A stretch of DNA of 54,822 bases, taken from contig JABZFM010000031.1 in assembly GCA_014237465.1 (NCBI GenBank), forward strand, positions 1 to 54,822, given 5' to 3'. Positions within the stretch are counted from its first letter, which is position 1. Each line of letters starts with the position of its first letter. Below the pieces are notes generated by a model. That model ran no database searches. It was given only the letters and a program-made list of their open reading frames with translations, and was not told where the DNA came from. The position numbers and the translations under genes are program-made. Shown here piece after piece: positions 13,893 to 24,370 of this stretch. The DNA is from Desulfobacteraceae bacterium. GTDB lineage: Bacteria; Desulfobacterota; Desulfobacteria; Desulfobacterales; Desulfosalsimonadaceae.

Positions 13893-14147
13893 ATGAAATA
13901 CTGGCGGGCCCCGCTGGATACGGATGAGATTGCCGTTGTCCGGGGAAAAGTTTATATTATCAATGATCGCTGCAAAGGGTGCGGGTACTGCATTGAATTC
14001 TGTCCCAGGGAAGTCCTGGAATTTTCAAAAGAATTCAACATAAAAGGGTATCATCCGCCGGTTGTCAAATCAGATGGTTGTTTGAACTGCCATTATTGCG
14101 AACTCCTGTGTCCGGAATTTGCCATTTATACGGTGGAAGCCGATTGA
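13893..14147 (+). CDS. korD: 2-oxoacid:ferredoxin oxidoreductase delta subunit (2x[4Fe-4S])
   Basis: An 84-residue ferredoxin-like subunit. The two clusters are bound by 'CKGCGYCIEFCP' (about residues 28-39) and 'CLNCHYCELLCP' (about 67-78), the spacing of bacterial 8Fe ferredoxins and of the KorD/PorD family. In the complex it passes electrons from the thiamine-bound intermediate to external ferredoxin or a partner protein. It is the first gene of a long plus-strand run, korD-korA-korB-korC and then three Hdr-type genes. AAGGA lies 7 bp before the ATG. Confidence 0.9.
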   Translation: MKYWRAPLDTDEIAVVRGKVYIINDRCKGCGYCIEFCPREVLEFSKEFNIKGYHPPVVKSDGCLNCHYCELLCPEFAIYTVEAD

Positions 14148-14195
14148 TACACTTCAACCTTCAACCTATATACCTAAAAATTAACAGGAAAACGG

Positions 14196-15341
14196 ATGGA
14201 ACCAAAAGTTCTCACAGGTGAACATTTTATAAATGGCGATATTGCGTGCGCTGAAGGGGCGATTGCCGCCGGCTGTACGTTCTTCGGGGCGTACCCGATT
14301 ACACCGGCGACCGAAGTGGCGGAACGCATGTCCGAAAGGCTCCCGGATGTTTGTGGCATTTTTATTCAGATGGAGGATGAGATCGCCGCCATGACATCCA
14401 TTCTCGGTGCAGCCTGGACCGGTGTTAAAACCATGACCGCGACTTCAGGCCCGGGGTTCAGCCTGATGATGGAAACCGTGGGTTTGGCGGTTGTAACGGA
14501 AACACCCTGTGTGGTGGTTAACGTTCAGCGAGGCGGGCCGTCAACCGGGCTGCCGACTATGGGGGCCCAGGCGGATATGATGCAGGCCAAATGGGGGTCC
14601 CACGGCGACTATGAGATTATCGCCATTGCCCCGTCATCGCCCCAGGAGATGTTCGATCTGACCATCGAAGCGTTCAACCTGAGTGAAAAATACCGGGTGC
14701 CGGTATTTATCATGTCAGACGAAGTGGTCGGGCATATGAGTGAAAAAGTGCTCATTCCGGAAGCAAAAGAGATTAAGACCGTTGCCCGCATCAAACCTAA
14801 GGGCCGCAAGGACCAGTTCAAACCGTATCAGCCGGGAGAAAACGGCGTGCCGCCCATGCCGGCGATTGGTGACGGATACAATGTGCACGTAACCGGCCTG
14901 ACCCATGATGAACAGGGATATCCTGTCATGTCCGTGGATACCCAGAAAGACATGATGAACCGGCTGTTGAGCAAAATAAGGGATAATCTCGATGACATCA
15001 TCCGGACGGAAGAATATTTGCTGGATGACGCGGACATTGTGATTGTTTCCTATGGTGTATCCGCCCGGACCGCTTTTACAGCGGTTGACATGGCTCGTCA
15101 GATGGGAATCAGGGTTGGCCTGCTCCGTTTGATAACCGTCTGGCCGTTTCCGGAAGAGATGATCCGTGATTTGTCCAAGCGCGTGAAAGGATTTGTCACC
15201 GTTGAAATCAACATGGGCCAGATCAGCCGGGAAGTCCAGCGCTGTGCCGGAGCAAATGCGCCGTCATATCTGGTGGGGCATGCAGGGGGAACGGTGATCA
15301 CACCGGATGAAGTCATTCATTTAATTAAAGAGGCATTCTGA
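14196..15341 (+). CDS. korA: 2-oxoacid (2-oxoglutarate-type):ferredoxin oxidoreductase alpha subunit
   Basis: A 381-residue subunit containing the pyrimidine-binding and transketolase-C-like parts of the enzyme. The N-terminal 'GAIAAGCTFFGAYPITPATEVAE' region and 'QMEDEIAAM' are hallmarks of KorA, and 'TATSGPGFSLMMETVGLA' contacts the cofactor. Length and order fit the four-subunit enzymes that turn 2-oxoglutarate plus CoA into succinyl-CoA, CO2 and reduced ferredoxin. The exact 2-oxoacid (2-oxoglutarate or branched-chain) is not decided by sequence inspection. Only 4 bp separate it from korB. Confidence 0.92.
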   Translation: MEPKVLTGEHFINGDIACAEGAIAAGCTFFGAYPITPATEVAERMSERLPDVCGIFIQMEDEIAAMTSILGAAWTGVKTMTATSGPGFSLMMETVGLAVVTETPCVVVNVQRGGPSTGLPTMGAQADMMQAKWGSHGDYEIIAIAPSSPQEMFDLTIEAFNLSEKYRVPVFIMSDEVVGHMSEKVLIPEAKEIKTVARIKPKGRKDQFKPYQPGENGVPPMPAIGDGYNVHVTGLTHDEQGYPVMSVDTQKDMMNRLLSKIRDNLDDIIRTEEYLLDDADIVIVSYGVSARTAFTAVDMARQMGIRVGLLRLITVWPFPEEMIRDLSKRVKGFVTVEINMGQISREVQRCAGANAPSYLVGHAGGTVITPDEVIHLIKEAF

Positions 15342-15345
15342 TAAA

Positions 15346-16176
15346 ATGGCAAAAGCAAAAGCAAATCAAAAAGTGCATCCGCTTGAGGAACTGATACGAA
15401 CAGAGCGGCTTCCGCATATCTGGTGTTCCGGATGCGGGGTGGGAACGGTTTTTTCCGCCTGCCTTGCCGCGATACAGGAGACCGGTATTGATCACAAAAA
15501 GTTTTCCATGGTTTCCGGCATCGGGTGTTCCGGCCGGGGCGCCGGTTATGTGAAGCTGGATTCCTTTCATACCACCCATGGGCGGTCGATTCCATTTGCC
15601 ACGGGTATTAAGATGGCCAATCCGTCATTGAATGTTATCGTGTTTTCGGGTGATGGTGATTTGTTTGCCATTGGCGGGAACCACTTTATTCATGCCGCCC
15701 GTCGCAATATGGATATCACCGTGATCTGTATCAATAATTTTATTTACGGCATGACCGGCGGGCAGGTGGCAGCCACCACCCCGCATATGGATCGTTCAGC
15801 CACAACGCCTTACGGTAATCCGGAGATGCCGTTTAACCTGCCCCTGATGGCATATGCGTCCGGTGCCACGTATGTGGCCCGGTGGACCATGATTCACTCC
15901 CGGGATTTAACCGATTCGTTTGTGGAAGCCATTAATCATAGAGGGTTTTCATTTATTGAAGTCCTTTCGCCCTGTCCGATTAATTACGGACGGCGCAACA
16001 AAATAAAATCATTGGATATGCTCAAATTGTTTGCCGACAATACCATCATCAAAAACAATGCGGATCCGGCGGAACTGGATATTGATTTTAAAAAGGGGGT
16101 GGTGCTGGGCAAATTTGTTGATATCGATAAACCGACACCGGATGAGAATTACGAAAAGGTGTGTATGATGAGGTAG
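15346..16176 (+). CDS. korB: 2-oxoacid:ferredoxin oxidoreductase beta subunit (TPP-binding)
   Basis: A 276-residue thiamine-diphosphate subunit. 'WCSGCGVG' near residue 26 and the later Cys of 'SGIGCSGRG' are typical of KorB/PorB. The TPP/Mg2+ motif is 'GDGDLFAIGGNHFIHAARRN' (about 103-122), followed by 'NNFIYGMTGGQ'. With KorA it performs the decarboxylation half-reaction. It starts 4 bp after korA and ends 11 bp before korC. An opposite-strand open frame over the start is a shadow. Confidence 0.92.
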   Translation: MAKAKANQKVHPLEELIRTERLPHIWCSGCGVGTVFSACLAAIQETGIDHKKFSMVSGIGCSGRGAGYVKLDSFHTTHGRSIPFATGIKMANPSLNVIVFSGDGDLFAIGGNHFIHAARRNMDITVICINNFIYGMTGGQVAATTPHMDRSATTPYGNPEMPFNLPLMAYASGATYVARWTMIHSRDLTDSFVEAINHRGFSFIEVLSPCPINYGRRNKIKSLDMLKLFADNTIIKNNADPAELDIDFKKGVVLGKFVDIDKPTPDENYEKVCMMR

Positions 16177-16187
16177 TAGGAAAAATT

Positions 16188-16784
16188 ATGACAAACACCA
16201 ATGAAAAAAATCGTCAGGAGATTATCGTCACCGGTTTCGGCGGTCAGGGAATCATTCTGGCCGGACGGATTCTGGGACAGGCGGCGGCCTTAGGAGACAG
16301 CAAGGAAAGTACGCTGGTCCAGTCTTACGGTCCGGAGTCCCGGGGAGGGGCCTGTGCCGCCCAGGTGATTATTTCCGAAGACATCATCCAGTATCCTTAT
16401 ATTAAGACGCCGGATCTGCTGGTCTGTATGTCCCAGTCCGCTTACGACAAATATATTGACGAATTAAAGCCCGACGGCATCCTGCTGACGGATCAGGATC
16501 TGGTGAAGCCGGCAGAAGATCGCGATTGTTTTTCCATTCCGGCTACCCGGATGGCAGAAGAGCTGGGGCGAAAAATGATGGCCAATATCATTATGATCGG
16601 TTTTACCACGGCGGTGGCCGGTGTGATTTCCGTGGACGCGGCCAAAGAAGCGGTTACTTCATCAGTGCCCAGGGGAACGGAGAAAATGAACTTGCAGGCG
16701 TTTACCAAAGGGTATGAATACGGCCTGTCCAAGCTCAAAGGACGCGCGAAAAAAGCATCGGGACAGACAGGAGTAATGGCATGA
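16188..16784 (+). CDS. korC: 2-oxoacid:ferredoxin oxidoreductase gamma subunit
   Basis: A 198-residue gamma subunit. The frame is open from a GTG at 16161 inside korB, but AGGA at 16177-16180 places the start at ATG 16188. 'VTGFGGQGIILAGRILGQAA' and 'SYGPESRGGACAAQVIIS' are the standard family signatures; this subunit forms the CoA-binding part. Its last codons overlap the next gene by 4 bp (ATGA), so translation is coupled to the large Hdr-like flavoprotein. That is direct evidence that the two products are made together. Confidence 0.92.
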   Translation: MTNTNEKNRQEIIVTGFGGQGIILAGRILGQAAALGDSKESTLVQSYGPESRGGACAAQVIISEDIIQYPYIKTPDLLVCMSQSAYDKYIDELKPDGILLTDQDLVKPAEDRDCFSIPATRMAEELGRKMMANIIMIGFTTAVAGVISVDAAKEAVTSSVPRGTEKMNLQAFTKGYEYGLSKLKGRAKKASGQTGVMA

Positions 16785-19700
16785 AGCGGGCGAAAGAAAG
16801 ACTGCATAAAGTTGTTGTAATCGGTGCCACACCCGCAGGAATTACGGCCACCAATAAACTCGGGGAACTGGGAATTCCGGTTACACTGGTTGATACGGAA
16901 ACCGACATGGACCGGAAATTATCCGAAGATACGCTGCGATTGAAATCAGGGGTGGCGTTTAATCATGCCCATCGGCCCGGCTTAATCCGGATTTTACGGA
17001 ATCCGTCCATTAAATGCATCCTCCCGGCGCATGTTTCTTCGATCAAGCACAGTCATCAGGGATTCCGGGTGGGGATTACCCGGGATCAGACATTTGTGGA
17101 TCCGGAGAAGTGTATTCTTTGCGGACGCTGCATTGAGGTCTGTCCGGTCCAGGACTGTTCGGCGGATAATGCCATTTCGTTTAACAGCCGCCAGAGTCTG
17201 CCGGGAAGGGTGGTGATTGATAAGCGCCGCGTGCCCCTTTGCCGGGAAAACTGTCCGCTGGGAGTCAATGTCCAGGGATATGTCGCGCTGGTGAAAGAAG
17301 GCCGGTTTGAAGAAGCCTTAGGCCTGATCCGGGAAAAGAATGTACTGCCCGGGATTTGCGGGCGGATCTGCACCCATCCCTGTGAAAGCGTTTGTCGTCG
17401 CAGTGAACACGATGATGCCGTGGCAATCCGGGATATTAAACGGTTTCTGGCGGATTATGAATTCGATTCCACAGCCGATCACACGCCGAAAAAGCAGCGT
17501 TCCGAGAAGATTGCGGTGGTGGGCTCCGGCCCGGCTGGTCTGGCGGCGGCGGCGGAAATGGCGAGTCAGGGATGCGGGGTAACTATTTATGAAAAAGAAA
17601 AACAGGCCGGTGGCCTGCTGCGATACGGAATCGGACCCCATCGCCTTCCGCGAAACATCCTGGATAAAGAATTGGACTATATTCAAAGCCTTGGCGTTGA
17701 GATCATTACAAATCAAGCGATGGATTTTAATGGCGGCTTGTCGGAACTGACCCAAAAATTTGATGCAGTCGTCCTGACCGCCGGTTCATGGGCGGATCGG
17801 CAGCTGGGAGTTGCCGGCGAAGACCTGGAAGGGGTTTCCGGGTGCATTGATTTTCTGACGCAATTATATCGTGAAAACATCACGTCTCTGAAAGAAAAAG
17901 TGGCGGTGATTGGTGATGGAAATGCGGCATATGACCTGGCGCGCGTCCTTTCCCGTATAGGTGCGGACGTCAGCATTGTTTCCTGGTTTGATAAAGATAA
18001 GATCCCGGCGGATCCGGAAGAAATTGTGGCAGCCGCCGAAGAGGGAATCCCTGTTGTCGATAATACTCAGGTCGTCGGGTTTGAAGGTAATAACGGGCGG
18101 TTTAAACGCCTGAAGTGCCGTCCGACTCAGCCGGGCACATCGGATGCCAACGGCATTGCCTGGCCGGTGATCATCAAGGGCAGTAAATCCTTTGCCCTTG
18201 AATTTGACCGGGCGTTTGTGGCCATCGGGCAGACCGGTGCGTTTGCTTTAAATGAAAATGACCCGGCGCTTCAAATTCTCGTCAATGGATTGATTGGTGT
18301 TAATGACCGGTTTCAGACAAATATGGAAAAAGTATATGCCGCCGGTGATGCGGCGAGCGGCGCGTCTTCGGTGGTCCACGCCATGGCGCAGGGCCGGGCG
18401 GCGGCGATCCGTGTACTTGATGATATTTGCGGTGTCCCATCATCGGAAAATCTTACCGTCCGGTCGATTGACCGCGACTTTACGCCGGTTCCGTCTGATC
18501 TGGCGTTCGTGTCCCGGGCCCGCATGCCGGAAAAGAATGTGGCCGAACGAAAGCTTAATTTTGATGAAGTGGCCTTAGGGCTTACCGAGGCTCAGGTCAT
18601 TGAAGAAGCACAGCGATGCCTGCAGTGCGGGGTCTGTTCGGATTGTATGGATTGTCTGGAAGTTTGTGACGCCATCGGGGCCATCAATCATAACGAGCCG
18701 ACAGAAGACATTTTGGAACATGCCGGGGTCATTATTATCGCTGATCCGGAAATTGCGCCGTCAGTCCGGGGCGATGATATTATCCGGGCCTATGGTCCTG
18801 CAACATCCCGTACCGATGTCAGCGCAATGATGACCCGGGGATTTGCCGCCGCCGCCCGGGCCATGGTTCTGCTCAGCAACACGTCCCAGCGTCAGAAGGG
18901 GCGGGGAATGTCATTTTCACCCCCGGAAGCAGACCTGGCTGACAAGATCAAAATTGGTGTATTTGCCTGCCGGTGCAATGATTCTCTTGGGTGGCATCCG
19001 GAAATGGATCGTTTTTTGGAAGATTTGTTATATGGAGATTTCATCCTGCACACGGAGTCGGTCGTCTCCGCCTGTACTCCCGAGGGAACGGCTGCTATTT
19101 TAAAAACCGTGCGTGAAAAAGGGATCACCCGCCTGGTCCTTGCGTCCTGTGTTTGCTGTCCTTTGAATTTTGTCTGCAGTTCCTGCACCGACCAGCGGAG
19201 CCGGTTAAAGTATGCACTGTTTAATGCCACGGGGATCAGTCGATCCATGGTAATGACCTGCAATATAAGAAATGAGGCATTAGCCGATTTAGCTCATGAT
19301 CCGGACATGGCATTGGAAAAGTTTTCCGGCCTGATCCGCCGGTCGATCCGGAGAGCCCGCAAATTAAAACCCTTTTCATCTCCGGCCCGGAATTATAATT
19401 TTACGACCGCCGTGATCGGGGAAAGCGAAGCCTCAGTCGAAAGCGCGATGTTACTGGCCGACGCCGGGATTGACGTATTTCTTTTTGGGTCCCGGGACAA
19501 AGCGCTGGAAGGCTCCTATGATCATACCAATCTTTTGTCTTTTAAAGGGTCCCGTGTAAAGCACATCAGCGGCAGTCTGGGAGCATTTCAGATCACGGTG
19601 GTGGTCGGTGAAAAGGAGCAGCAGATTCAGGCCGGTGCCGTGATCCTGGGTGAAAAAATTCGGGGCCGGATTCAATATCTTACGCCGGATGCCAATTTCG

Positions 19701-20134
19701 GCCGGGCAATCACCGCTTCCATGCAGAAGGCGGGGACTACCGGCATTCCGTTTTATTATCCGGGCATGACCTCTGTGAGCGGACTGTTTATGGCGGATCC
19801 ACCGGGCATTGCCGTATCAAACCGTCAGAAAGGGCATGCTGCCGCAGTGCTGGCCGCAGCTATTATGCCCCGCGGTCCGCGCCAGCAAAAAGGGTTTACG
19901 GTAACGGTGAATGCTGAAAAATGCCGGGGATGCGGGCGTTGCATTGATAAATGCCCGTACCGCGCCATCACTATGCAGAACAATGAAATCGGCGGCTGGT
20001 ATGCGGTGGTGGATGAAACCTTGTGTAAGGGATGCGGCAACTGCATTTCCTCATGTCCGTCAAACGCGGCCGATAGTCCTTTCCGGGATCAGATTTTTCT
20101 GGAAAAGACATTAGAGGAAATTCTGGTAAATTAG
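16781..20134 (+). CDS. GltD/HdrA-like multidomain NAD(P)H- and FAD-binding iron-sulfur protein
   Basis: A 1117-residue fusion. Order: a partial Rossmann segment (10-40); an 'ILCGRCIEVCP' cluster (about 111-121); the GltD/Fer4_20 N-domain with 'CGRICTHPCESVCRR' (193-207); a GltD-type FAD domain with 'GSGPAG' (248-253) and an NAD(P)-binding fold with 'GDGNAA' (378-383); a Cys-rich 'CLQCGVCSDCMDCLEVC' (613-629); an HdrA-type N-terminal domain (about 725-865, 'GVFACRCNDS'); a decayed second FAD fold (876-1030, GESEAS in place of GxGxxG); and two [4Fe-4S] motifs (1048-1059, 1082-1092). I infer that it lets NAD(P)H feed or drain the Kor/Hdr complex, as NfnB and GltD do for their partners. It overlaps korC by 4 bp and lies 9 bp before the HdrBC-like gene. 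Confidence 0.85.
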   Translation: MKRAKERLHKVVVIGATPAGITATNKLGELGIPVTLVDTETDMDRKLSEDTLRLKSGVAFNHAHRPGLIRILRNPSIKCILPAHVSSIKHSHQGFRVGITRDQTFVDPEKCILCGRCIEVCPVQDCSADNAISFNSRQSLPGRVVIDKRRVPLCRENCPLGVNVQGYVALVKEGRFEEALGLIREKNVLPGICGRICTHPCESVCRRSEHDDAVAIRDIKRFLADYEFDSTADHTPKKQRSEKIAVVGSGPAGLAAAAEMASQGCGVTIYEKEKQAGGLLRYGIGPHRLPRNILDKELDYIQSLGVEIITNQAMDFNGGLSELTQKFDAVVLTAGSWADRQLGVAGEDLEGVSGCIDFLTQLYRENITSLKEKVAVIGDGNAAYDLARVLSRIGADVSIVSWFDKDKIPADPEEIVAAAEEGIPVVDNTQVVGFEGNNGRFKRLKCRPTQPGTSDANGIAWPVIIKGSKSFALEFDRAFVAIGQTGAFALNENDPALQILVNGLIGVNDRFQTNMEKVYAAGDAASGASSVVHAMAQGRAAAIRVLDDICGVPSSENLTVRSIDRDFTPVPSDLAFVSRARMPEKNVAERKLNFDEVALGLTEAQVIEEAQRCLQCGVCSDCMDCLEVCDAIGAINHNEPTEDILEHAGVIIIADPEIAPSVRGDDIIRAYGPATSRTDVSAMMTRGFAAAARAMVLLSNTSQRQKGRGMSFSPPEADLADKIKIGVFACRCNDSLGWHPEMDRFLEDLLYGDFILHTESVVSACTPEGTAAILKTVREKGITRLVLASCVCCPLNFVCSSCTDQRSRLKYALFNATGISRSMVMTCNIRNEALADLAHDPDMALEKFSGLIRRSIRRARKLKPFSSPARNYNFTTAVIGESEASVESAMLLADAGIDVFLFGSRDKALEGSYDHTNLLSFKGSRVKHISGSLGAFQITVVVGEKEQQIQAGAVILGEKIRGRIQYLTPDANFGRAITASMQKAGTTGIPFYYPGMTSVSGLFMADPPGIAVSNRQKGHAAAVLAAAIMPRGPRQQKGFTVTVNAEKCRGCGRCIDKCPYRAITMQNNEIGGWYAVVDETLCKGCGNCISSCPSNAADSPFRDQIFLEKTLEEILVN

Positions 20135-20143
20135 AAGGTAGGT

Positions 20144-21730
20144 ATGGAAAATTATAAAATTATACTGTTTTTATGTAACTGGGGGGCCCATACGGCGTAT
20201 CAGGCGCTTCAGGATCAGGGCTATAGGGTGCCGCCGGAAATCAGCACGGTCCGGATTCCCTGCACCGGAAGGATCTCAAAGGCCCTTTTGTTCAAGGCTT
20301 TTGAAATGGGGGCCGACGGGGTTGCCCTGGTGGGATGCAAGCCGGGAACCTGCCGGTACGGTGTCGGAACAAACAGTGCAATCAATTTCACGGATGATAC
20401 ACGTGAAATTCTGGCGTTTCTCGGTCTGGATAAAGATCGCCTGCAGCTGGTGACTTTTTTGCCGGATGAAGTGGATGGATTGCGAAATTTTCTTGAGATG
20501 TTTTGCGATGAAATCAGATCCTTTGGTAAATCCTCGCTTATGCCGACGCATAAAGACCTCATAAAAGATGATCAAGCCGGTACATTTGCCGAAATTCTGG
20601 CGGCCCATAATGCATATGGGTGTCAGGACTGCGGCAAGTGCACGTCATCATGCCCTCTGGCCCTGACCGGCAAGCAATTTTCCCCGCGCGCAATCGCCGG
20701 TGCTGTGATTGCAGGAGACATGAATTCAAAAGAGATTGTCGAGGATATCTGGTCCTGCCTGACCTGCGGCATCTGTTATGCGCGATGTCCGTCCGGAGTC
20801 AATTTCCCGGATTTTATCTGTGATATCCGCGCCCTGGTTAAAAGCAAGGATGACGGGGACTCTCATCAGGCGCATGGCGGTTTTTTTCAGTCCCTGATGC
20901 GGTCTATGACTTCACCGGAGATGAAGACCGATCGATGGAGCCGGCTCCCGAAGGATGTCAAACTGGATGATAAAAGCAAAATCCTTTTTTTCGGTGGGTG
21001 TGCACCATATTTTGACACATTTTTTCGAAACCATCTGGGGGTCCGGACGACGGATGTTCTGGTCGACAGCCTGCGGCTGATGAATTTTTTTGATGTTGCC
21101 CCGGCAGTACTTAAAAATGAACGGTGCTGCGGGCATGATCTGCTCTGGTCCGGTGACCGGGAAAATTTTTTGAAGCTGGCCCGGCTTAATATTGCAATGA
21201 TTGCCGAAATGGGAATTGAAGAAGTTGTGACTGCGTGTCCTGAGTGTTACCGGACGCTGGCAATGGATTACCAGCGTTTCGGAGTGGATGTCGGGTTTAA
21301 GGTCACCCATATATATGAGTTTCTGGAACAGGAAATTGACAAGGGGGCGGTAACCTTTAATCCACCGGAAAAGGCTATGACGTTTCAGGATTCCTGCCGG
21401 ATGAACAGTTTTGACGCCTTAAAGGATCTGCCGAGGAAACTGATCAATCGGATTTCTCCGAATCAATTCGAAGAGATGAAAGACCATAAAGATGTTTCCA
21501 TGTGCTGTGGCAGCAGCGCCTGGACCGGGTGTGATGCATACAGCAAGGCCATGCAGGTGAACCGGCTTCGGCAGGCCCGGGAAACCGGCAGTAATTTGAT
21601 GGTAACGTCATGTCCGAAGTGCCAGATCCATTTGCAGTGTGCCATGGAAGATCCGTTTCAGGGCAATGATTTGAAAATGGAAGTGATGGACCTGACCAGC
21701 GTGATTCGGCAAACGATTTGCTGGGAGTAA
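20144..21730 (+). CDS. MvhD-HdrC-HdrB fusion protein
   Basis: A 528-residue three-part fusion. Residues 1-125 are an MvhD/FlpD electron-transfer domain (Cys 11, 40, 65, 70; 'VGCKPGTCRYGVG'). Residues 155-220 are an HdrC-like 2x[4Fe-4S] module (Cys 160/163/166/170 and 205/208/211/215). Residues 278-525 carry two HdrB CCG domains (Cys 286, CCG 328-330, Cys 365/368; Cys 418, CCG 454-456, Cys 490/493). All CCG cysteines are present, so the noncubane clusters that split disulfides in HdrB can form. In methanogens these are separate HdrB, HdrC and MvhD. Its natural disulfide or other acceptor is unknown. GAAGGTAGGT precedes the ATG. Confidence 0.88.
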   Translation: MENYKIILFLCNWGAHTAYQALQDQGYRVPPEISTVRIPCTGRISKALLFKAFEMGADGVALVGCKPGTCRYGVGTNSAINFTDDTREILAFLGLDKDRLQLVTFLPDEVDGLRNFLEMFCDEIRSFGKSSLMPTHKDLIKDDQAGTFAEILAAHNAYGCQDCGKCTSSCPLALTGKQFSPRAIAGAVIAGDMNSKEIVEDIWSCLTCGICYARCPSGVNFPDFICDIRALVKSKDDGDSHQAHGGFFQSLMRSMTSPEMKTDRWSRLPKDVKLDDKSKILFFGGCAPYFDTFFRNHLGVRTTDVLVDSLRLMNFFDVAPAVLKNERCCGHDLLWSGDRENFLKLARLNIAMIAEMGIEEVVTACPECYRTLAMDYQRFGVDVGFKVTHIYEFLEQEIDKGAVTFNPPEKAMTFQDSCRMNSFDALKDLPRKLINRISPNQFEEMKDHKDVSMCCGSSAWTGCDAYSKAMQVNRLRQARETGSNLMVTSCPKCQIHLQCAMEDPFQGNDLKMEVMDLTSVIRQTICWE

Positions 21731-21758
21731 AAATAAAAAGTTTGAAGTGTAGAGTGAA

Positions 21759-21857
21759 CTAAAGTGTCTAAAGTTTTGGACTGCGCAAAACGCGCAATCA
21801 TTTTAAGATAAAAAATCACAATGCCGAAGGCATTAACATTAACTTTAGGCACTTTAT
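21759..21857. repeat. inverted repeat in the spacer before hdrA
   Basis: CTAAAGTGTCTAAAGTT (21759-21775) pairs with AACTTTAGGCACTTTAT (21841-21857), two mismatches in 17, around a 65-nt spacer. The 210-bp gap is the only sizeable break in the kor-hdr run. It may be a MITE-like insertion, or an RNA hairpin that lowers transcription into hdrA. Confidence 0.55.
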
Positions 21858-21940
21858 ACTTTAGATCATTTATAACTATTTCGGCATATCTGATTTAGAC
21901 AACAAGTAAGGTCTTTTGATCATATATGAAAGGAATTCAG

Positions 21941-24370
21941 ATGGAAATTTCTGGAATGGCAGCTGTTGCCGGGGCGGGCATTGAAAAGCCGCGCACCGGT
22001 GTTTATGTTTGCCGGTGCGGATTAAATATTGCTCAGACGGTGGATTGCGCGAAAGTTGCCCAAAATGCAGCCGGTCTTGAGGATGTGGTGGTTTCAAAAG
22101 AGATTACATATGCCTGTTCTGAACCCGGCCAGGTGGAAATTCTGGAAGATATCGCAGAAAACGGCCTGGACCGAATCGTGGTGGCTTCCTGCTCTCCGCG
22201 CCTCCATGAGCCGACATTCCGGCAGATGATGAAAAAAGGGGGCCTGAATCCGTATATGCTGGAAATGGCCAACCTCCGGGAACAGTGCAGCTGGGTTCAT
22301 ATGCATGAGCCGGATGCTGCCACTGAAAAGGCCGAAGACCTGGTCAAAATGGCCGTTGCCCGGGTGGGGCTTCTGTGGCCCCTGACTGAAGAAATTGTCC
22401 CCCTGACTAAAAAAACTATGGTGATCGGCGGCGGTATTGCCGGTATCCAGGCGGCCCTGGATCTGGCGGACACCGGGTATGAGGTGATTCTGGTGGAAAA
22501 AAAACCCTCCATCGGGGGGATCATGGCCCAGCTGGACAAGACCTTTCCCACCATGGACTGCTCCATCTGAATCCTCGGGCCGAAGATGGCGGATGTCGGT
22601 CGACATCCCAACATTACCCTGCACACCATGAGTGAAGTTGTAGATATTAAGGGCTTTGTGGGTAATTTTAATGTCCGGGTCCTTAAAAAATCCCGGTATG
22701 TGGATGAATCAGAATGTACGGCCTGCGGTGAATGCGCCAAGGTATGTCCGGTGGTCTATCCGGATGAATTCAATGTGGGGCTTTCGTCGCGGCGGGCGGT
22801 GTATATGCCGTTTCCCCAGGCGGTCCCGTCTTCATATGCGATTAACATGAACGAATGCCTGGGCCACGGGTGCTCCAAGTGTGCGGACGCGTGTGATAAG
22901 AATTGTATTCATTTTCACATGTCGGATGAAGATTTCCAGGTCACCGTGGGGTCTATTATCGTGGCCACGGGCTTAGAACCCTATGATCCGCGTGAAATGG
23001 ATGAGTATGGCTACACCCGCTATGAAAACGTCATGACCAGCCTGGAATTTGAGCGCATGGTCAATGCCGGCGGGCCTACAAAGGGCGAGCTGATTTGTCC
23101 GAAGGATCGTCAAAAGCCCCGTTCTGTGGGGTTTATTCAGTGCGTTGGGTCGCGCTCCCTGCAGAAAGGCGGGGAATACTGCTCCAATATCTGCTGCATG
23201 AATACCATTAAAAGTACCCTTGTACTGAAAGAACATTATCCGGACATGGAAATCAAGGTGTTTTATATTGATATCCGTGCGTTTGGAAAAGGGTTTGAAG
23301 ACCTCTACAACCGAAGCCGCCAGCTTGGCGTGCAGTACGTTCGGGGACTGCCAGGCAGCATAGAGGAACTGGAAGACGGCAGTGTGCGGGTGGCAGTGGA
23401 AAATACCAGTACGGGCCGGATTGAATATCATGATTTGAACATGATGGTTCTGGCGCTGGGCATCAAACCATCTTCCGGGACCCAGCGGCTCCAGGAAATG
23501 ATGGGGCTCCAGCTGACGTCGGACGGTTTTTACCTTGAGGCCCATCCCAAACTGCAGCCGGTGGATGCAGCCACCCGGGGCATTTTCTATGCCGGGTGCG
23601 CGGAAGGACCCAAGGATATTAAAGAAAGTGTGACCCAGGGGTCGGCCGCGGCTGTCCGGGCTGTTCGCCTGATGCACCGGGGGGTGATCACGTCCGAACC
23701 GATTACATCCGAAATTATTGCCGAACATTGTGTCTCCTGCGGCAAATGCGCAACGGTTTGTCCGTATAATGCCATTGTCGTGGATACCAAGAAAAAAACG
23801 CCGGCGGTGGTGAACACCGCGGCCTGTTCCGGTTGCGGCACTTGCGCGGCTGAATGTAAATTCGGCGCCATTGTCATGAACCATTTTACGGATGAACAGA
23901 TCAACAGCCAGACCGACATCATGCTGGCTGAAAACGCGGCAGATAAAATTCTCACCTTTGCCTGCAACTGGTGCTCCTACGCGGGCGCGGATTATGCCGG
24001 TGTGTCCCGGCTCCAGTACCCGGCCAACGTGCGCCTGATTCGTACCATGTGCTCCGGGCGTGTGGATGAGGAATTTGTCTGGCATGCGTTTGAAAAGGGC
24101 GCGCCCGTGGTTCTGGTCAGCGGTTGCCATATCGGGGACTGTCACTATATTGACGCCAATCACTGGACCGAGAAACGAATCGTCAAGATGCACAAAAAAA
24201 TGGAAAAACTGGGCATCCGCGCAGAACGTCTGCAACTGGAATGGATCAGCGCAGCCGAGGGGATTCGGTTTGCCCAGGTGATGAAGGATATGGATAAACT
24301 TCGCATGGGGGTGAGTCCGGGTGAAATTGCCGAAACAATCGAAATTTTAAAGGCTCGGAAGAAGAAGTAA
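21941..24370 (+). CDS. hdrA: selenocysteine-containing HdrA-MvhD flavoprotein (TGA 22568-22570 read as Sec)
   Basis: An 809-residue HdrA when the in-frame TGA at codon 210 is read as Sec. The frame is the same before and after, and the context 'TFPTMDCSI-U-ILGPKM' falls on a motif where HdrA proteins have Cys or Sec. Parts: HdrA N-domain (about 20-140), FAD Rossmann fold with 'GGGIAG' (163-168), a first Fe-S motif (259-269) and a second (306-318), the special HdrA cluster ligands 'QCVGS' (401) and 'YCSNICC' (414-419), two [4Fe-4S] sites (about 597-608, 629-639), and a C-terminal MvhD domain starting at about 668 ('ACNWCSYAGADYAG'). HdrA carries the bifurcating FAD in methanogens. Start chosen at 21941, with AAGGA 6 bp upstream; ATG 21926 lacks one. 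Confidence 0.9.
22591..22608 (+). promoter_or_regulatory. candidate bacterial SECIS hairpin
   Basis: GGATGTC and GACATCC pair perfectly (7 bp) around the loop GGTC. The loop lies 28-31 nt after the TGA, within the range seen for bacterial SECIS elements, and the same GGUC occurs in the apical loop of the E. coli fdhF SECIS that SelB binds. The hairpin is inside the hdrA coding sequence (ADVGRHP), as bacterial SECIS elements must be. Confidence 0.75.

Follow-up and report, generated by a model that had tools for sequence, protein, structure and literature searches.

The stretch of DNA analysed here, referred to as the window, comprises 54,822 nucleotides (contig JABZFM010000031.1 of the Desulfobacteraceae assembly GCA_014237465.1, positions 1 to 54,822 of the forward strand) and carries, between positions 13893 and 24370, seven plus-strand genes that place a four-subunit 2-oxoacid:ferredoxin oxidoreductase (Kor) beside Hdr-type redox modules. 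An earlier note had proposed these genes as a possible electron-bifurcating complex, and all seven were recovered where it had placed them when genes were called from open reading frames and from matches to Pfam and NCBIfam profiles. The conserved set opens with korD (13893–14147), encoding an 84-residue two-cluster ferredoxin subunit with Fer4 families, followed by korA (14196–15341; alpha subunit, 381 residues, POR_N and PFOR_II domains), korB (15346–16176; beta subunit, 276 residues, with TPP_enzyme_C, a TPP domain and cluster cysteines) and korC, the gamma subunit (PF01558 POR match at E 7.2e-36), which ends at 16784 and begins at either 16161 (GTG) or 16188 (ATG, 198 residues). The profiles next identify a 1117-residue fusion (16781–20134), resembling ‘type III HdrA’ and HdrL proteins, in which a GltD core (about 17228–18415) is embedded in two consecutive HdrA-like units. 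A 528-residue MvhD-HdrC-HdrB fusion with FlpD, Fer4 and two CCG stretches follows (20144–21730), and the run closes with hdrA2-mvhD (21926–24370; 814 residues including the residue encoded by an in-frame UGA; NF040770).

The successive intergenic spacings are 48, 4, 11 (or an overlap), −4, 9 and 195 bp. The note had described several of the genes as overlapping or lying within 11 bp; spacings from korD to hdrCB range from −4 to 48 bp, the korC stop overlapping the fusion start by 4 bp, and hdrA2 at the end is not tightly packed. The width of this last gap is probably due to an interspersed repeat, one copy of which (about 131 bp, 21745–21875) lies within it and has 26 further matches in the genome at 67–85% identity, bar one 30-base match at 90%. 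Separate transcription of hdrA2 was considered on account of the gap and is possible but not supported: the gap holds the repeat and measures 10–122 bp in many relatives.

The same gene order, which the note had suggested looking for in other Desulfobacterota, is widespread among the genomes that carry the fusion. A protein search with the fusion against 395 Desulfobacterota genomes, the window’s own included, returned long matches in 41, of which 29 share at least 51% identity and 12 share 33–37%; the other matches listed cover the GltD half only (within residues 3–670), mostly in open frames near 1500 residues that may be of the HdrL type. We read 45 loci, made up of five named metagenome-assembled genomes (MAGs) and 40 stretches from 39 genomes, and found the seven genes in one order and on one strand in 37; the remaining eight reach contig ends and none contradicts the order (the HdrA2 label in locus L071 is a cross-match). 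That this order persists down to 32–35% fusion identity excludes chance. In the 41 fusion neighbourhoods (the window, 39 genomes and genome G137), kor adjoins the long fusion in 40, and the contig of the other, G002, begins within the fusion. With starts chosen by script, the reading frames of korC and the fusion share bases in 28 of 42 loci, and in 41 of the 42 the two genes are no more than 10 bp apart. No gene family within about 6 kb of the flanks is common to more than four of 39 loci, which argues that the unit ends at seven genes. The five named MAGs, which came from a scan of genome contigs, are all of Desulfobacterales type. Judged by this synteny, the seven genes are a conserved operon.

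Segment mapping resolves the architecture of the fusion. Residues 10–123 correspond to HdrA2 residues 163–276 and residues 649–698 to HdrA2 534–583, with the GltD part (about residues 150–545) inserted inside this first HdrA-like unit; the second unit spans residues 721–1096, of which 721–866 match the HdrA N-domain and 990–1096 the HdrA C-terminal end. On this mapping, the fusion consists of two degraded HdrA units one after the other, the first of them interrupted by GltD. The NAD(P)H-type GltD module that the note had recognised is indeed present: its GxGPAG flavin motif is intact in 43 of 44 aligned rows, and its second motif, GxGNxA (GDGNAA in the window), is likewise kept in 43, with N381 replaced by serine in one row and G378, G380 and A383 invariant in all 44. 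The residues after the second GltD strand read SWF in 31 of the 44, YRR in seven and AIE or GIE in six, so that cofactor preference may differ among relatives. The fusion fares less well as one of the two HdrA-type flavoproteins that had been claimed: the flavin motifs of its HdrA-like units deviate in the window, reading GATPAG in the first and GESEAS in the second, and the third flavin-motif glycine is retained in only 8/44 rows for unit 1 and 3/44 for unit 2, with L080 reading GGGDIG. Flavin binding by these units is doubtful on motif grounds. Thirty-four cysteine columns are kept in at least 80% of the 44 rows, and the fusion itself lacks a UGA codon. An AlphaFold2 monomer model reached a mean pLDDT of 84.2, and its top Foldseek matches were NfnABC/StnC structures (9n5u, 8oh5, 9bov), which superpose poorly over the whole length (TM scores of 0.41–0.43 on the query). 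In the second HdrA-like unit, a short stretch at 18968–19186 (fusion residues 730–802) holds eight invariant cysteines, C730, C732, C765, C790, C792, C793, C799 and C802; the last four lie in a segment missing from HdrA2 and could possibly ligate an extra cluster.

The other claimed flavoprotein is complete. HdrA2 scores 1200.5 bits against NF040770 (cut-off 1100), its residues 20–668 align with residues 2–651 of the 654-residue HdrA in 5odc_A, and a FlpD match at 675–791 marks a C-terminal MvhD domain; by these alignments, it is the only complete HdrA in the locus. Its flavin-motif glycines are kept in 39–43 of 43 rows, and K429, the equivalent of 5odc K409, which we take to be the lysine near the flavin adenine dinucleotide (FAD), in 41 of 43. 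The in-frame UGA (22568–22570, plus strand, residue U215) takes the place of the last cysteine in the conserved HdrA DCSxC motif. Three lines of evidence indicate that it is a selenocysteine (Sec) codon, as the note had proposed: i) an 18-base hairpin with a GGUC apical loop, a bacterial selenocysteine insertion sequence (SECIS), lies on the same strand at 22591–22608, starting 20 bases 3′ of the UGA, and is present in every one of the 43 sequences examined (42 relatives besides the window, all picked for carrying the UGA), ii) its pairing is conserved, 297 of 301 pair cells being standard where sliding the partner leaves 75–172, and covariation is seen at one pair (U-A in 22, U-G in 7, C-G in 14) though one side of it alters an amino acid, and iii) the window genome holds a tRNA-Sec that exceeds the Rfam cut-off, a model lenient by itself in that 5 of 14 control genomes also exceed it, and that ARAGORN likewise calls, with anticodon TCA.

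Among relatives, the residue at this position tracks the presence of GltD. Of 65 HdrA2 matches, 59 were readable (the exceptions being L071, L072, L073, L098, L102 and L128), and HdrA2 carries Sec in all 44 loci whose gene run includes GltD and cysteine in all 15 whose run does not; the 59 loci share kinship and are not as many independent events. The GltD–Sec pairing occurs with Kor of two lineages, the main clade and the genus of L102 and L103, the latter locus lying outside our tree.

The HdrB cysteines, which the note had expected to act on a disulfide, are kept for two HdrB-type clusters: 17 of 18 tested HdrC/HdrB cluster cysteines occur in every one of the 48 rows, and the eighteenth occurs in 42, with glycine in the other six. 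In 11 distant loci (L075–L085), mvhD and hdrCB are separate, in different frames or divided by a stop, and the fused state is probably derived. A strong dsrA match occurs in 36 of the 41 operon genomes (188 of the 395 genomes of the phylum pass the cut-off), the others being G002 (66% complete), G104 (weak match, E 1.5e-6), G133, G192 and G291. A search for DsrC in these five and in the window genome found it in the window genome and gave zero matches in all five. Both CCG cluster sites, with all 18 cysteines, are nonetheless kept in the operons of genomes lacking dsrA (L076, L078, L080, L081). The DsrC trisulfide is thereby ruled out as a universal acceptor, since four operon genomes that are 90–100% complete have neither a DsrC match nor a dsrA over the cut-off; the high-potential partner is thus not always DsrC, which may still serve in other operon-bearing genomes. 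Separately, one contig of the window genome (G000:C20:35894-52052) carries a cluster of six DsrC/TusE-like matches in frames of 216–241 residues, three of them over the cut-off, and an ordinary DsrC lies on contig C24.

What Kor acts on is less firmly indicated. KorB residues C27, C30, C61 and C210 are conserved in 69 of 69 alignment rows, and its closest solved structure, 8ys5_C, is the beta subunit of a 2-oxoglutarate ferredoxin oxidoreductase; after it comes 6n2n, catalogued as a pyruvate oxidoreductase, which we take to be a 2-oxoglutarate enzyme. None of the Kor subunits reached a 2-oxoglutarate-specific NCBIfam cut-off (KorD matched the OGOR_delta model NF042987 at E 3.8e-20, below it), and KorA alone exceeded any family cut-off, that of a general 2-oxoacid model (NF006412, 580 bits against 411). 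These scores leave room for a different substrate, a branched-chain or aryl 2-oxoacid whose catabolism the unit would serve, a reading that the naming of 8ys5 and the TCA-like clusters in which relatives occur make distinctly unlikely. The window genome also holds a second KorDABC on contig C63 (KorB 49% identical), downstream of genes that by eye resemble leuC and leuD; the 20 kb read there contain no match to hdr.

We also surveyed how Kor is placed elsewhere. Of the 395 genomes, 213 contain a KorB match at E 1e-70 or better, and we read 27 neighbourhoods, a subset of the matches with roughly 50% identity and above that fall outside the operons already read. Four resemble the seven-gene operon (L097, together with L098, L101 and L128, which are cut by contig ends, L101 retaining 396 fusion residues), and two hold a shorter GltD version, L103 with a Sec HdrA2 and L102 without HdrA2. 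Ten present KorDABC next to a Cys-type HdrA2 with no GltD between (L104, L105, L107, L110, L111, L113, L123–L126), HdrC(B) being next in all eight whose contig extends there, and in five a Cys-type HdrA adjoins the kor genes or is interspersed with them, HdrC also being present and the run lacking GltD (L106, L108, L109, L112, L127). In L108, where a separate GltD-like gene lies about 6.7 kb downstream, HdrA-KorDABC sits among frames whose N-termini resemble, by eye, Mdh, Fum, Sdh and SucCD. In the remaining six, kor has no hdr gene within reach (L095, L096, L099, L100, L114, L122); of these, L114 and L122 read, again by eye, as sdh-sucCD-korDABC. Kor–Hdr pairing therefore takes several forms across the phylum. 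Six more contigs of the window genome carry HdrA-type genes (L116–L121, on C65, C57, C24, C69, C66 and C3), those on C57 and C69 with GltD-half matches.

The kor-only loci include close sisters of the window Kor, at 68% identity. In a FastTree phylogeny of KorA and KorB, the close operons group with support of 0.90, and four kor-only loci fall inside the larger operon clade with weak support (0.65). An HdrA2 search at E 1e-150 in the genomes of the six kor-only loci found none or 43% identity at best, a threshold that a broken copy could escape; at the same threshold, the kor-only genomes G208, G252, G067 and G229 hold no relative of Sec-HdrA2 closer than 43%. The dependency appears to run in one direction: the module of GltD and Sec-HdrA accompanies kor, and kor does not need the module. 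The expectation that kor and hdr parts stay together in relatives is accordingly borne out for the hdr half, but not for Kor, which in the same clade has no hdr neighbours in some genomes. It is here that a looser arrangement has to be weighed, one of functional neighbours without a physical complex, in which Kor would work with free ferredoxin and Hdr would be a separate NAD(P)H/ferredoxin/disulfide enzyme drawing on a common ferredoxin pool. The existence of kor-only relatives suits it, as does a KorD of normal ferredoxin-subunit size; the constancy with which the GltD-bearing hdr half stands beside kor, with no contradicting genome, and the frequent overlap of korC with the fusion speak against it, and we consider it unlikely.

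The operon is in all likelihood also present in a cultured bacterium. In genome G161, contig C1 carries the seven genes and the UGA with the fusion at 324123–327476, which is almost certainly the hdrA1-mvhD1-Dmul_C02800 locus of Desulfococcus multivorans, an assignment that draws on position (hdrA1 is placed at 0.32 Mbp in PMC5109826, and the fusion lies at 0.324 Mb) and on tag order; we infer that the UGA gene, dmul_C02770/80, is hdrA1. The same text reports the HdrA1 protein, contains neither ‘kor’ nor ‘oxoglutarate’, and describes aconitase (AcnA), Icd and Mdh as encoded and undetected on any tested substrate (PMC5109826).

Taken together, a model for the operon emerges in which the seven products would form one redox unit of Kor, a bifurcating Sec-HdrA2, a GltD port and HdrB, a reading that we hold to be evenly balanced between right and wrong. 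The electron route is drawn from established knowledge of HdrABC, GltD and Kor, and from the genes we infer the complex, its bifurcation, substrate, direction and partner. KorDABC would interconvert 2-oxoglutarate and CoA with succinyl-CoA and CO2, trading electrons of low potential with HdrA2, in which bifurcation probably takes place at the FAD. NAD(P)H would enter at mid potential through the GltD portion of the fusion. Electrons would be passed between the fusion, HdrA2 and HdrC by the MvhD domains, and the CCG clusters of HdrB would form a high-potential port to a disulfide or other acceptor. In net terms, 2 NAD(P)H, the oxidised high-potential acceptor, succinyl-CoA and CO2 would be in balance with 2-oxoglutarate, CoA and the reduced acceptor. 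The reductive carboxylation of succinyl-CoA calls for electrons at about −0.5 V. With published potentials near −280 mV for NADH and −500 mV for ferredoxin (PMC9304861), and −140 mV for the heterodisulfide, the bifurcation sum is feasible.

The reductive direction is favoured only slightly; in its favour, AcnA, Icd and Mdh went undetected in D. multivorans. Run oxidatively, the same unit would serve as a step of the TCA cycle, oxidising 2-oxoglutarate and confurcating with a dithiol to yield 2 NAD(P)H, which the sdh-sucCD-korDABC order in L114 and L122, whose Kor belongs to the wider clade, would suit; the D. multivorans proteome fits the making of 2-oxoglutarate better, though absence from a proteome is weak evidence, and we regard the oxidative alternative as unlikely. 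Several observations weigh against the redox unit as proposed. The packing of hdrA2 is loose in the window and looser in L044, where the gap reaches 1659 bp, and L102 (genome G031) has GltD and HdrCB genes without an adjoining HdrA2. The occurrence of kor without hdr neighbours in G208, G252, G067, G229 and L114/L122 means that Kor can work without the Hdr module. The window genome encodes a NADP isocitrate dehydrogenase (TIGR00183, 612 bits against 567), another possible source of 2-oxoglutarate, which, with the sdh-sucCD-like neighbours of relatives, counts against the reductive direction.

A stricter version of the unit, a hard-wired and ferredoxin-independent bifurcating 2-oxoglutarate synthase, would have Kor bound to Sec-HdrA2 and the GltD port, possibly two flavin switch sites in series (the GltD FAD and the HdrA FAD), a disulfide other than that of DsrC, and a requirement of Sec for NAD(P)H entry through GltD; we give it little credence. 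More generally, a carboxylase fed locally by bifurcation from NAD(P)H would alter the costing of carbon fixation and glutamate supply in energy-limited anaerobes, and the pairing of Kor with the Sec-containing module could let cells drive, or harvest, a very demanding CO2-fixing reaction. The presumed presence of the operon in cultured D. multivorans, with HdrA1 reported, makes the question directly testable; the Sec/Cys split with and without GltD offers a handle on the role of selenium in HdrA, and the DsrC-free operon genomes reopen the matter of which disulfide bacterial HdrB uses.

Elsewhere in the window, positions 243–2060 encode an alkyl sulfatase-type protein with a metallo-beta-lactamase fold, a dimerisation domain and a C-terminal domain. 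In a scan of the window, promoter-like sites numbered 26 (14.3 expected) and terminator-like sites 22 (14.2 expected), counts that are not informative, and an Rfam scan of the window gave zero matches at the gathering score.

Several known systems share parts of this arrangement. In tubeworm symbionts and Thioflavicoccus, korABCD is interspersed with flxABCD-hdrABC in a reductive tricarboxylic acid (rTCA) cluster, and the authors propose a complex passing electrons straight to Kor (PMC6315080, PMC11636981). Both systems set a four-subunit Kor beside HdrABC, and L108 resembles the symbiont arrangement, but within Desulfobacterota. In the symbiont cluster, however, NADH enters by Flx, kor lies between hdrA and hdrBC, and aclAB and tfrAB are present; the window locus has the GltD-HdrA fusion instead, with no flxABCD among the seven products and no common flanking family. 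In the methanogen complex HdrABC-MvhAGD (5odc), nearly all of HdrA aligns with HdrA2, and MvhD, HdrC and HdrB modules are common to both, whereas our operon has GltD and Kor instead of the hydrogenase and carries Sec in HdrA; its seven products hold no match to a hydrogenase large or small subunit (MvhA/MvhG), nor is any common family found in the flanks. The transhydrogenases NfnABC and StnC match the GltD core of the fusion in sequence and, to our knowledge, have no HdrA units. Knowledge of Sec-containing HdrA goes back to 2006 (PMC1794560).

Closest to the fusion are two sets of GltD-HdrA proteins. Type III HdrA of ANME-1 and Bathyarchaeota has GltD inserted in HdrA at the ferredoxin insert as a proposed NAD(P)H port (PMC12054007, in which neither ‘2-oxoglutarate’ nor ‘oxoacid’ occurs). 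The window fusion shares the insertion within HdrA, but the nine archaeal sequences are reported there with GXGXXG where the window has GXGXXA, and the HdrA units in the window are degenerate, with a complete HdrA encoded separately. HdrL of the Desulfobacterota sulfate reducer Desulfobacterium autotrophicum is an HdrA/glutamate-synthase fusion beside mvhD; there, hdrL1 and hdrL3 are themselves Sec-containing, and mvhD and dsrABC come after HdrL1 (PMC2702500), whereas the window fusion lacks a UGA and sits with kor. The note’s remark that it knew of no characterised example with these fusions stands to the extent that we found no description of this operon in the open-access literature as far as seen, and print beyond it may differ; it falls short in that the idea of a Kor–Hdr complex and GltD within HdrA were both already in print. 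Set against these precedents of Kor–Hdr coupling and GltD-HdrA fusion, the seven-gene combination is a new variant.

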